64,000 nt of DNA, from contig NZ_JAGDWX010000030.1 of assembly GCF_023256195.1 (NCBI RefSeq), positions 1,778 to 65,777 on the forward strand. The letters are read 5' to 3'. The stretch comes from Acidithiobacillus sp. GTDB taxonomy: Bacteria; Pseudomonadota; Gammaproteobacteria; Acidithiobacillales; Acidithiobacillaceae. This document shows positions 28,888 to 34,658 of this stretch, piece after piece. Under the pieces are notes generated by a model. It ran no database searches and had not been told where the DNA came from. It saw only the letters and a list, made by a program, of their open reading frames with translations. Position numbers and translations under genes: made by a program. The stretch's first letter is position 1, and every line of letters begins with the position of its first letter.

Positions 28888-28903
28888 CTGTATAAATTTA
28901 CAG
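28888..28903 (+). promoter_or_regulatory. LexA box (SOS operator) upstream of lexA
   Basis: CTGTATAAATTTACAG, i.e. CTG-N10-CAG as in gammaproteobacterial SOS boxes; overlaps putative -10 TATAAA; 24 nt upstream of the lexA GTG. Confidence 0.88.
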
Positions 28904-28926: not shown

Positions 28927-29535
28927 GTGGAAAAACTGAGCAGAAGACAGGCAGAGATTCTGCAATGGCTGCACCGCTATGTGCAGGAAAACGACGTGCC
29001 ACCAACCCGGGCGGAGTTGATGCAGGCCTTTGCCTTTCAGTCTCCCAACGCTGCCGAATCCCATCTGCGCACCCTGGAGCGCAAGGGCTATCTGCAGTTG
29101 CAGCGGGGCAGGGCGCGCGGCATCCGCCTCACGGAGACGGTGCAGCAGGAGGGTCTGCCGCTGGTGGGACGGGTGGCGGCCGGTCAGCCCATCCTGTCGG
29201 AAGAAAATCTGGAATCTTATCTGCCAACGGCCGACCGACTTTTTCCCGAAGCCGATTTTCTCCTGCGGGTGCAGGGGATGAGTATGCGGGATGCGGGCAT
29301 CCTCGACGGCGATCTCCTGGCAGTCCAGCGTTGTCTAGAGGTGCACAACGGGCAGATTGCCGTGGTGCGCCTGGACGATGAGGTGACGGTCAAACGTTGG
29401 CAACAGGAAGGGGAACGGCTCTGGCTGCTGCCGGAGAATCCGGATTTTGCCCCCATCGAAGTGGATCTCGGGCGTCAGGCCCTGAGTGTGGAGGGGGTGG
29501 TGGTGGGTTTGATACGGCGAGGAGGAAAACTATGA
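28927..29535 (+). CDS. lexA: LexA repressor
   Basis: HTH (PPTRAELMQAFAFQSPNAAESHLRTLERKG), Ala-Gly cleavage site (VAAGQPI), Ser/Lys catalytic context (GMSMRDAGI, VKRW); GTG start. Confidence 0.93.
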   Translation: MEKLSRRQAEILQWLHRYVQENDVPPTRAELMQAFAFQSPNAAESHLRTLERKGYLQLQRGRARGIRLTETVQQEGLPLVGRVAAGQPILSEENLESYLPTADRLFPEADFLLRVQGMSMRDAGILDGDLLAVQRCLEVHNGQIAVVRLDDEVTVKRWQQEGERLWLLPENPDFAPIEVDLGRQALSVEGVVVGLIRRGGKL

Positions 29536-30197
29536 AGCCGGCATTGGAATCCCTGCTCCGAGAGCATCCGCGCCACCTTTGGCGAGGCCTGCAAAGTCCG
29601 GGAGAAGGCAGGGCGACGGGTGGCGATGCGGCCACCCTGAAAACGGGCCGGGAGGAACTGGACCGATTGCTGGGAGGCTGGCCGCGAGGAGGCATCACCG
29701 AAATCCACAGCAGCACCCCGGGCATCGGCGAACTGCGCCTGCTGCTACCCTTGCTGGCTACCCTGAGTCAGCAGCAGAAACGTTGGATTCTCTGGGTGAC
29801 GCCACCCTACCTTCCTTATCCTCCGGCCCTGGCTGCCGCCGGCCTGCGCCTGGAGCGTATGCTATGCCTCCACCCACGGCAGCGTCAGGATCGCCTCTGG
29901 GCCCTGGAGAGTGCGCTACGTTCCGGTACCTGCAGCGCCGTGCTGGCCTGGCCTCCACCCTTGGATACCACGGCCTGGCGGCGTCTGCAGCTGGCGGCAC
30001 AGGAAGGGGATACGGCGGCGTTTTTCTTCTTTCACGAAGCGCAGCCGTCGGCTTCGGGGTGGGCAGCACTACGTCTAGAGTTGCGGCCCGACCCTCGGGG
30101 AGTGGCGGTAGCCGTGCAGAAAAGGCGAGGTGGGATGCCTGGTCGTGGAGTCGTTCCCCTGTCGGAAGGGGAACAGCTGCCTTTGGCCATCGGCTGA
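29532..30197 (+). CDS. imuA: ImuA (SulA/RecA-like translesion mutasome protein)
   Basis: LDRLLGGWPRGGITEIHSSTPGIGELRLLLPLLA, position between lexA and imuB; ATG at 29532 overlaps lexA stop. Confidence 0.88.
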   Translation: MKPALESLLREHPRHLWRGLQSPGEGRATGGDAATLKTGREELDRLLGGWPRGGITEIHSSTPGIGELRLLLPLLATLSQQQKRWILWVTPPYLPYPPALAAAGLRLERMLCLHPRQRQDRLWALESALRSGTCSAVLAWPPPLDTTAWRRLQLAAQEGDTAAFFFFHEAQPSASGWAALRLELRPDPRGVAVAVQKRRGGMPGRGVVPLSEGEQLPLAIG

Positions 30198-30203
30198 TGG
30201 ACG

Positions 30204-31609
30204 GTGACGGCCGTGCCCTCCTATTACGTGGCCCTCTATTTTCCAGAGCTGGATGCCGGCCTCTGGGAGCGGGATGAAGAGGGAGTAGGCCCGGTGGTGC
30301 TGGCGGATGGTCGGCGTCGCATCCGTCAGCGCGGTCCCCTGGCTCTGCGCCGGGGTCTGGAGCTCGACATGAGCCTCGCCAAGGCCAGAGCTCTTTGTCC
30401 GGACCTGCGCCTGCGGCCGGAGCGATCGCAGCGTCGTCGCGAGTTTCTGCGGGACTGGGCCCATTGGCTTTACGGCTGGGGACCTCAGGTAGCCATGATC
30501 GAGCCTTGGGCGACGATTCTGGCGGTGGAGGTGGGCAGCAACCCTCGCTGGCGTGCCGACCGCAGGGCCTTTCTTCAGGCCTTGCGGGAGCGGGCCGAAG
30601 GCGGGCCGCGCTGGCGCTGGGGAGCCGCACCCACGGCCACGGGGGCCGCTCTCATGGCTCTGAGCACGGCGGAGGCCAGTGGTCGGGCGGCCGTCCCCAG
30701 ACGTTGGGCGGAAGTCTGGCCGAATCTGCCTTTACGCCTGCTACCCGCCGAGGAGCGGGTGCGGGAGCTTTGGCAGAGTCTGGGCTTGCACAGTCTGGGG
30801 GACCTGGCTGCCTTGGACGATGCGGCGCGGGCCCAGCGCTTTGGCCCCCACTGGGGCGAGTTCCTGAAGATCGTGGCGGGCGCGCATCCCGATCCACGTC
30901 CCTATTTTGCCTTTCCGGAAACGCCGCGGCGCGAGCTCCGCCTGGTGCGGCCGGTAGAGGACTGGCCAGCCTTGCGTTTTCCTTTGGCCCGTCTCTTTCG
31001 CGAGCTCCAGGATATGCTGGCACGGGCGGGCCTCGGAGCCCGCCGTTGGCGGCTCCGTCTGCAGGCTCGGGAGGCGTTTTTCGAAGACTGTCTGGAAAGT
31101 CGGGAAGTACTCAGCGATCGGGAACTTTTCCTGGAGCTCTGGCAAAGACGCCTGGAGCGTCACCACTGGACCTTTGCCGCCGAGACCATCGTCCTCGAAG
31201 CGCTGGATAGCCGTCCCTGGGGTGGGCGGCAGCAGGATTTCTGGCGAGAGGATCTGGCCGAGCGCCAGGAGCAGCTCGTGGAGCAGTGGCAAGCCCGCCT
31301 TGGACCAGAGGCGGTGCAGACCTTGAGCCCCTGGCCCGATCATCGGCCCGAACGGGCCTATCGGATTCTCCCCCACGGCCGTGGGCAGGTCCGCGGCGGC
31401 GTCCTCTGTGGCTCCTGCCCAAAGCGCAGCCTCTGGAAGAGAGGGATGTCCATCCCCACAGCGAAATCGAGCGGATCCAGGGCGGCTGGTGGGACGGTGC
31501 CGACGTGGATCGCGACTATTTCCTGTGGCGTCGTCGCGATGGCGCGCGCTGCTGGGTCTTTCGCGATCGTCGTCACGGAGGAGTCTTTATCCATGGTTAC
31601 TTCGCCTGA
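30204..31609 (+). CDS. imuB: ImuB (Y-family polymerase-like mutasome protein), apparently frameshifted near 31362-31420
   Basis: N-terminal ImuB in frame of 30204; C-terminal ImuB signature (RPLWLLPKAQPL...RIQGGWWDGADVDRDYFLW...CWVFRDRRHGGVFIHGYFA, stop 31607-31609) lies in a different frame (ORF 31286..31609). Confidence 0.8.
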
Positions 31610-34600
31610 AACCGAACCTCCCTACGTCGAACTGTGCGCACAGAGCCACCTGAGTTTCCTTCAGGCCACGGCGGCGGTGGAAGATCTTATCGAACGCGCC
31701 GTCAAACTGGGCTACGCCGGCCTTGCCATCACCGAGGACTGCAGTCTCATCAGCGCCCCCCGCGCCCACGTGGCGGCCCGAGAGAAAGGGCTGAAACTCA
31801 TCCTGGGAAGCCGCTTTCGCCTGGTGGACGGTCAGGAGCTCGTGCTGCTGGTACAGGATGTTTCGGGTTATGCGGCCTTGGCGCGCCTCATCACCCTGGC
31901 CCGGGGACGGGCAGACAAAGGCGAATATCGTCTGGAGTGGGGGGATCTTCCGCCTTGCCCGGGGCTGCTGGCCATCTTTCTGCCGGACTGGGAGCGGGCC
32001 GAAGAGCCGCCTGAGACCTTGAGAGAGCTTTCCGGGTATTGGGGGACGGAACGTCTGCGCCTTGGCCTTGTCCTGCGCTATCAAGGCGATCATTCCCAGC
32101 GTCTGGCACGGTTGCGCCATTGGACGGCGCGGACAGGAATCCGCGGCTTGGCCTGCGGGGCAGTCACCATGGCGCGCCGGCGCGAGCGTTTTCTGCTGGA
32201 CGTGCTCACCGCCATCCGCCGGGGACGCCCGCTCAGCGAACTGGGTTTTGCACTTGCGGCCAACGGCGAGGCGCACCTGCGTTCCCGAGCCCAGCTCGCC
32301 GCCATCTATCCCCGGGACCTGCTGGTCGAAACCCTGGCGGTGGCGGCTTCCTGCGATTTCTCCTTGGATCGTCTGCAGTATCGCTACCCGCCCGGGAGTT
32401 GTCCGCCGGGGCAAAATCCTGAAGAGTACCTGAAGGCTCTTGCCCGCGCGGGGCTTGCCCGCCGCTATCTCGACGGCGTGCCGGAGAAGGTGGCGCGGCA
32501 GCTGGAAGAGGAGCTGCGTATCGTCCACGAGCTGGACTATGGCCAGTATTTCCTGACGGTGCACGAGATCGTCCACTTTGCCAAAAGCCGCGGCATTCTC
32601 TGCCAGGGGCGGGGTTCGGCGGCAAACTCGGTGCTCTGCTACGCCCTGGGCATCACGGAGGTGGACCCTGCCCGGAGTAATCTCCTTTTTTCCCGCTTTC
32701 TCTCGCGCGAGCGGGGGGAGCCGCCGGATATCGACGTGGATTTCGAGCACGAGCGCCGGGAGGAGGTCATCCAATTCGTCTTCGCCCGCTACGGTCGCCG
32801 TCACGCCGCCCTTACCGCCAGCATCCGCCACTACCGCCCCCGCAGCGCCCTGCGCGACGCGGCCCGGGCCCTGGGTTTCAGCGCGGCGGAGCAGGATGCC
32901 CTCGGCCGCGATCTGGCTTGGTGGGATGGTCGTCGGATAAGGCCGGAACGGCTGCAGGAGGCGGGTTTCGATCCCGAAAGTCCGGCGGTGCGGCGCCTGC
33001 TGCTGGTGGCCAACGCCCTGGTGGGTCTGCCCCGCCATCTCTCCCAGCACGTGGGCGGGATGGTGCTGAGCGCCGAGGCTCTGGACGCTTTGGTGCCCAT
33101 CGAGCCCGCCCGGATGGCGGGCAGGACCGTCATCCAGTGGGACAAGAACGACCTTGACCTCTTGGGTATCCTGAAGGTGGATCTCCTCGCGCTGGGCATG
33201 CTGAGCGTGCTGCGCCGGGCGCTGGACGATCTGGGTCTCGGGCTTGAAGGCATTCCGCCGGAGGATCCAGCGGTCTATGCCATGCTCCAGCGGGGCGAGA
33301 GTCTGGGGGTCTTTCAGGTGGAGTCGCGGGCTCAGATGAGCATGCTGCCTCGCCTCAAGCCGCGTTGCTTTTACGATCTGGTTATCGAGGTGGCCATCAT
33401 CCGCCCGGGGCCTATCCAGGGGGGTATGGTCCACCCGTACCTGCGCCGGCGTGAAGGCGTCGAAGCGGTGCATTATCCCGGCCCGGAAGTGCGCAAGGTC
33501 CTGGAGCGGACCCTGGGGGTACCCATCTTTCAGGAACAGGTGATGCAGATTGCCATGGAGGCAGCGGGTTTCGATGCCGACGCCGCCGACGGCCTGCGCC
33601 GTGCCATGGCGGCTTGGCGTCGGCACGGCAATCTCGGCCCTTATCAGGACCGCCTGCGGGCGGGATTGCAGGCGCGGGGTTACGACGAAGCCTTTGCACG
33701 GCAACTCTGCCAACAGATCCAGGGTTTTGCCGAGTACGGCTTTCCCGAGTCCCACGCGGCGAGTTTCGCCTTGTTGGTCTATGCCTCGGCCTGGATCAAG
33801 TGCCATCATCCGGCTGTTTTCTGCGCGGCGCTGCTGAACAGTCAGCCCATGGGTTTCTATGCTCCGGCCCAGATCGTGGCTGAGGCGCGGGAACGGGGGG
33901 TGCAGGTTTTGCCTCTGTCTATCCGCCACAGTGTCTGGGAAAGCCGCGCCCGTGGCGGCTCTCTGCGTCTCGGTTTCCATCAACTGCGTGGCTTGCCACA
34001 GGCGGTGGCCGATAGGATCGTCGCCTGGCGTGAGCAGGGCGGTTCTCTGGATCCCGTGGCGCTGGTGCGGGAGCTGGGCTGCCCCCGCGCCGAGGTGGAG
34101 CGGCTCGCCCGTGCTGGGGCCTGGGAAGACGAAGGTCAGGATCGACGCCAGAGTCTCTGGCAGGTGGCGGCCGTGCGGGAAGCCACCGCCTTGCCCCTGG
34201 CGCCGGCGGCGGAACCCGAAGTCCCCCTTGCGGCGACGCCGGCGGCGGCGCGCTGTCGCATCGACTACGCTCAGTTGGGTTTGAGCCTCGGTCCTCATCC
34301 GCTGCATTTCCTGCGGCAACGCCTGCAGGCGGAAGGCTATCGGCCCATTGCCGAACTGCTGCGGGCGCCGGCGGGGGGAGGCAAGGGCGTCGCCGGCCTG
34401 GTTACCCATCGTCAGCGCCCAGCCACCGCCCACGGAACGGTCTTCCTGACCTTGGAGGACGAAAGCGGCCGGATCAACGTCATCGTCTGGCCCAGTCGGG
34501 TGGAGCCCTGGCGTCGGGCCATCCTCCAGGGCCGGCTCCTGGGGGTGCGTGGCAAGCTAGAGAGGGACGGGCGGGTCTGTCACCTCATCGCTCAGAGTCT

Positions 34601-34658
34601 TACGGATTACAGCCAGTGGCTAGGGGAACTGGCTACCCGGTCCCGGGATTTCTGTTGA
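31593..34658 (+). CDS. dnaE2: Error-prone DNA polymerase III alpha-like DnaE2
   Basis: PHP domain start YVELCAQSHLSFLQATAAVEDL; C-family polymerase motifs (PDIDVDFEHERREEVIQF; QMSMLPRLKPRCFYDLVIEVAIIRPGPIQGGMVHPYLRRR); ATG at 31593. Confidence 0.93.
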   Translation: MVTSPETEPPYVELCAQSHLSFLQATAAVEDLIERAVKLGYAGLAITEDCSLISAPRAHVAAREKGLKLILGSRFRLVDGQELVLLVQDVSGYAALARLITLARGRADKGEYRLEWGDLPPCPGLLAIFLPDWERAEEPPETLRELSGYWGTERLRLGLVLRYQGDHSQRLARLRHWTARTGIRGLACGAVTMARRRERFLLDVLTAIRRGRPLSELGFALAANGEAHLRSRAQLAAIYPRDLLVETLAVAASCDFSLDRLQYRYPPGSCPPGQNPEEYLKALARAGLARRYLDGVPEKVARQLEEELRIVHELDYGQYFLTVHEIVHFAKSRGILCQGRGSAANSVLCYALGITEVDPARSNLLFSRFLSRERGEPPDIDVDFEHERREEVIQFVFARYGRRHAALTASIRHYRPRSALRDAARALGFSAAEQDALGRDLAWWDGRRIRPERLQEAGFDPESPAVRRLLLVANALVGLPRHLSQHVGGMVLSAEALDALVPIEPARMAGRTVIQWDKNDLDLLGILKVDLLALGMLSVLRRALDDLGLGLEGIPPEDPAVYAMLQRGESLGVFQVESRAQMSMLPRLKPRCFYDLVIEVAIIRPGPIQGGMVHPYLRRREGVEAVHYPGPEVRKVLERTLGVPIFQEQVMQIAMEAAGFDADAADGLRRAMAAWRRHGNLGPYQDRLRAGLQARGYDEAFARQLCQQIQGFAEYGFPESHAASFALLVYASAWIKCHHPAVFCAALLNSQPMGFYAPAQIVAEARERGVQVLPLSIRHSVWESRARGGSLRLGFHQLRGLPQAVADRIVAWREQGGSLDPVALVRELGCPRAEVERLARAGAWEDEGQDRRQSLWQVAAVREATALPLAPAAEPEVPLAATPAAARCRIDYAQLGLSLGPHPLHFLRQRLQAEGYRPIAELLRAPAGGGKGVAGLVTHRQRPATAHGTVFLTLEDESGRINVIVWPSRVEPWRRAILQGRLLGVRGKLERDGRVCHLIAQSLTDYSQWLGELATRSRDFC

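Follow-up and report, generated by a model that had tools for sequence, protein, structure and literature searches.

An open reading frame that appears to fuse the mutasome protein ImuB to the error-prone DNA polymerase DnaE2 in Acidithiobacillus sp. is best explained by a standard mutasome operon in which a private and recent frame lesion in imuB, either a mutation of this strain or an assembly or sequencing error, accidentally joins imuB to dnaE2 (probability about 0.9). In the window, which is the whole 64,000-nucleotide stretch of DNA analysed and to which all coordinates refer, a single uninterrupted frame with a GTG start runs from 30204 to 34658 on the forward strand and encodes 1484 amino acids (166 kDa) that pass from ImuB into DnaE2, as found both in the ORF list and in a search of the organism's own genome. 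The frame of imuB is broken before its last domain, the joined arrangement is absent from the other genomes covered, and the displaced end of the gene carries the mark of selection for the unbroken arrangement. The draft assembly of this genome comprises 37 contigs and 1.98 Mb. Comparisons with a congener refer throughout to one genome, the closest relative among those covered: it is complete, belongs to the same genus and has a chromosome of 2.78 Mb. The named family relatives are Acidithiobacillus species.

The frame change inside imuB and its operon

The canonical C-terminus of ImuB (RPLWLLP...HGYFA) lies at 31400-31606 and is read in the -1 frame with respect to the core of the protein. 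The frame that carries it spans 31286-31609, contains RPLWLLPKAQPL...GGWWDGADVDRDYFLW...GGVFIHGYFA and terminates at the stop codon 31607-31609, so that both the continuous ImuB-DnaE2 frame and the displaced C-terminus proposed in an earlier note on this DNA are confirmed. A profile built from the ImuB proteins of the family matches the window in two overlapping frames, first over model positions 1-412 and then over positions 393-470 of 470, the second match corresponding to 31373-31606 (E=1e-34). This split match, the alignment to the congener and the substitution pattern described below identify the segment bridging the two proteins as out-of-frame translation that originates from a frame change inside imuB; a convincing match of the bridge to any family was not found. 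The change had been mapped to 31362-31420. It does lie inside that span, and alignment to the congener narrows it to between about 31365 and 31384, within a hypervariable linker that is 13 nt shorter in the window than in the congener. The sequence around the break is 73% GC, and a perfect 14-nt palindrome, CCCACGGCCGTGGG, occupies 31372-31385 and is missing from the congener. The C5 run suggested as a natural candidate for the change is indeed present at 31370-31374, but the ORF has 18 comparable homopolymer runs, this one included, so that it is not specially implicated.

Table 1. Features of the lexA-imuA-imuB-dnaE2 region (positions in the window)
Feature	Positions	Strand	Basis
SOS (LexA) box CTGTATAAATTTACAG	28888..28903	+	Only CTGT-N8-ACAG match in the 64-kb window; ends 23 bp ahead of the likely lexA start
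lexA, likely GTG start	28927..29535	+	PF01726 and PF00717 above cut-offs; 93% identity to congener; order as in Acidithiobacillus loci
imuA	29534..30199	+	Position and orthology; 58% identity to the gene that separates lexA from imuB in the congener; about 40% in Acidithiobacillus loci
ImuB core with putative clamp and RecA-NT-like motifs	30204..31364	+	Frame intact; 78-79% identity to congener ImuB; omega 0.147
GC-rich hypervariable linker, site of the frame change	31365..31399	+	Congener alignment; low-confidence homologous segment in a relative's AlphaFold model
Out-of-frame bridge of the fused ORF, 74 codons	31371..31592	+	ImuB-C part not under selection in the bridge frame
ImuB-C domain coding sequence	31400..31609	+	Shifted to the -1 frame with respect to the core; 84% identity to congener; omega 0.143
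dnaE2, error-prone DNA polymerase	31593..34658	+	Own ATG at 31593 with GGAGGAG upstream; NF004225 1297 bits (cut-off 939)

The gene order lexA-imuA-imuB-dnaE2 (Table 1), which recurs in the congener and in Acidithiobacillus loci, is that of a standard LexA-controlled mutasome cassette, the control by LexA being predicted. Because 0.65 matches to CTGT-N8-ACAG are expected per window by chance, it is the position of the SOS box, and not its mere occurrence, that constitutes evidence. The imuA product has no match in Pfam, NCBIfam or PHROGs. The position of the dnaE2 start, which overlaps the imuB stop, is conserved in relatives. Ahead of this start (31577-31592) the window carries a strong GGAGGAG where the congener has GGTGGGG, and with this difference dnaE2 may initiate independently. 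The cassette thus resembles the ImuA-ImuB-DnaE2 (ImuABC) mutasome of the proteobacterial ImuB1 type in its gene order and SOS box, in an ImuB core with clamp and RecA-NT-like motifs (here putative), in its DnaE2 family protein and in the overlap of the dnaE2 start with the imuB stop; it differs in that ImuB-C is out of frame, which leaves imuB and dnaE2 in a single open frame in the assembly. ImuB can be classed as a Y-family polymerase homologue, since the family ImuB profile recovers structures of DNA polymerase IV (E=5e-25). The ImuB of the window scores below the threshold of PF00817, which is only suggestive of catalytic inactivity. A six-frame search of the whole genome returned no PF00817 (Y-family) match, the same family being found in 11 of 14 control genomes, and the ImuB-DnaE2 cassette may therefore be the sole translesion system of this organism.

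Relatives and selection on the displaced tail

The loci of the relatives and the family profile both indicate that imuB and dnaE2 are canonically separate genes. Wherever imuB is ungapped in other members of the family, one frame of 472-513 aa contains the complete profile, and 59 further loci with both genes have core and tail in a common imuB frame, none of which enters dnaE2. ImuB was detected in 180 of the 399 genomes of a phylum survey and, apart from that of the window, no ImuB frame among the matches listed exceeds 858 aa. No second genome with an ImuB-DnaE2 fusion was thus found in the family, in the 59 other loci or among the listed matches of the phylum survey. Two long frames were considered as further fusions and rejected: one of 873 aa (G017/L008) crosses a block of N inside imuB, and in one of 858 aa (G190:C6, locus L025, minus strand) core and tail are read in one frame and dnaE2 in another. 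A scan of genome contigs with the ImuB of the window yielded no sibling strain, and the family sample includes a single other member of the genus.

The pattern of substitution between the window and the congener indicates that the displaced tail has been maintained as part of ImuB. The ImuB core has an omega of 0.147 and the 5' part of dnaE2 one of 0.114. ImuB-C gives 0.143 when translated in its own frame and 1.72 when translated in the frame of the fusion. Substitution counts do not differ between core and tail (Fisher p=1.0). A simple model rejects a tail that evolved neutrally along 20% of the divergence path (P=0.002) and gives a borderline result for 10% (P=0.055). The tail was thus under selection as ImuB until very recently, or still is so. 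Purifying selection on the tail in its own frame means that the lesion is either very recent or an artefact, although its age is bounded only loosely because a single congeneric genome was compared. The break itself thus appears to be recent.

The length of the fused frame calls for no special explanation. The corresponding shifted frame of the congener likewise runs open into dnaE2, and 18 of 54 relatives have a dnaE2 frame that extends without a stop back beyond the start of ImuB-C, so that one indel of the right sign would give a similarly long ORF in these genomes. With high GC content and a conserved overlap of the two genes, such an ORF follows automatically from an indel of that sign. 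The fusion ORF is a by-product of the indel. On this explanation, the frame of imuB would have been changed by an indel in the variable segment that links the RecA-NT-like motif to ImuB-C, and the shifted frame past the indel would be the stop-free frame of dnaE2, in which the two overlapping genes read as an ORF of 1484 codons. In this respect the locus resembles ordinary strain-specific or assembly frameshifts, in which the break is likewise confined to a single lineage and the downstream codons are under purifying selection in the old frame; it differs from ordinary frameshifted genes in that the shifted frame enters the next gene.

Strain mutation or assembly error

The main alternative to a mutation in the strain is that one base was lost, or a few were collapsed, when the GC-rich palindromic linker was assembled and that imuB and dnaE2 are intact and separate in the cell. 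This is a serious possibility, which we hold at somewhat below even odds. A fully conserved tail under selection in its own frame is what it predicts, the local GC content of 73% and the palindrome at the break make the spot a plausible one for an error, and scaffold joins with bad local sequence do occur elsewhere in this assembly, as inside mutS2. Against it, there is no N gap near the imuB break, and the loss of a single base would still require a natural 12-nt difference in the linker relative to the congener.

The background of frame breaks in the assembly was estimated from a comparison in which 0.79 Mb of this genome was set against 1.7 Mb from the congener, with a filter on codon position, which gave about 503 matches between orthologous ORFs. 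Among these, imuB is the only ungapped frame break, which also speaks against an error. The other two breaks, in mutS2 and in a tyrosine integrase gene, coincide with 10-N scaffold gaps (L036:4908-4917 on contig C6 and C12:829-838, respectively); mismatching sequence lies beside the gap in mutS2. A first screen had produced 13 candidate breaks, and those inspected were antisense ORFs, upstream-extension ORFs or 10-N gaps. The idea of a generally indel-prone assembly was rejected, as the codon-position filter leaves only imuB and the gap sites. The reverse comparison revealed four other breaks, which are located in the complete genome of the congener; two ORFs on contig C3 (locus L033) look frame-broken there at 87-94% identity. 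Since the assembly is not generally prone to indels, a real mutation of the strain is no less likely than an error. The low background makes a generic error less likely and is uninformative on the GC-rich palindromic spot itself. The balance tips slightly towards a strain-level mutation.

What ImuB keeps and what the break may mean

The earlier note had suggested that the break alters the tail of ImuB that interacts with the beta-clamp and ImuA. This probably does not hold, as only the linker and ImuB-C are lost. The putative clamp motif QQDFW (31230-31244) and a RecA-NT-like motif (about 31269-31325) are both upstream of the break in the intact frame. In the passages on domain order in PMC6511836 and PMC11791113, the clamp motif and then RecA-NT precede the linker and ImuB-C; QQDFW and EQLVEQWQARLGPEAVQTL occupy the positions expected for the putative clamp and RecA-NT motifs, where the model of a relative has a helix-strand element. 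In this AlphaFold model the helix-strand element is followed by a low-confidence linker (pLDDT < 50 at 396-401), onto which the break maps, and by a beta-rich terminal domain. In Mycobacterium smegmatis, an imuB lacking its last 168 residues, and with them also the RecA-NT region, phenocopies the deletion of imuB (PMC10421592).

The retention of these motifs and the location of the break in the linker make a functional fusion conceivable, though without positive evidence. In such a protein the covalent link to DnaE2 would replace ImuB-C, the contacts with clamp and ImuA would be kept and recruitment of the polymerase would be obligatory, possibly alongside free DnaE2. In agreement with this, M. 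smegmatis ImuB without ImuB-C still binds ImuA' (PMC11791113), ImuB-C has been put forward as the main candidate for binding DnaE2 (PMC6511836), the break falls in a disordered linker downstream of both motifs, and the cassette may be the only translesion system of a genome with no other PF00817 gene found. However, the fusion is found in none of the relatives covered, the supposedly abandoned tail is fully preserved and the frame that should have replaced it is not under selection, and dnaE2 retains its own start. A functional fusion is thus very improbable. The modular mutasomes of the Kyrpidia, Geobacter and Streptomyces types are similar in that ImuB-C is separable from the Y-family core or absent, but they are conserved arrangements of separate genes, none of which is described as an ImuB-DnaE2 fusion in the sections of PMC6511836 that deal with them.

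Programmed -1 frameshifting, by which slippage on the C5 run would yield canonical ImuB plus an ImuB-DnaE2 fusion, had also been raised and is more doubtful still. By construction the tail lies in the -1 frame, selection on it is preserved, and a strong hairpin (31382 onward) begins about 5 nt past the codons CCC CAC. However, the zero-frame codons are CTC CCC CAC and do not form an X XXY YYZ heptamer, so that re-pairing in the A site fails. The hairpin is only weakly unusual (z=-2.06 in a 60-nt segment picked post hoc and -1.27 in 100 nt) and not conserved, the congener having no unusual structure here (z=+0.82), and the relatives encode ImuB in one frame and none needs recoding. With neither a canonical slippery site nor conservation of the arrangement, programmed recoding to two products is unlikely. 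Phase variation, in which slipped-strand events would lengthen or shorten the C5 run, is the least credible proposal and has nothing beyond the presence of that run at the break to recommend it, since five bases are few, there are 18 such runs in the ORF and the linker differs from that of the congener by 13 nt and not by run length.

A private frame lesion in an otherwise standard mutasome operon remains the preferred explanation. If the allele is real, it is predicted to encode an ImuB(deltaC)-bridge-DnaE2 chain of about 166 kDa, possibly accompanied by free DnaE2 from its own start, and its most likely effect would be the loss or impairment of ImuB-C function. More generally, the locus cautions that in GC-rich genomes with overlapping operon genes a single indel can mimic a convincing ORF for a two-protein fusion. 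An allele that is both real and active would offer a natural test of whether recruiting DnaE2 is all that ImuB-C is needed for, a question still open in mutasome biology.
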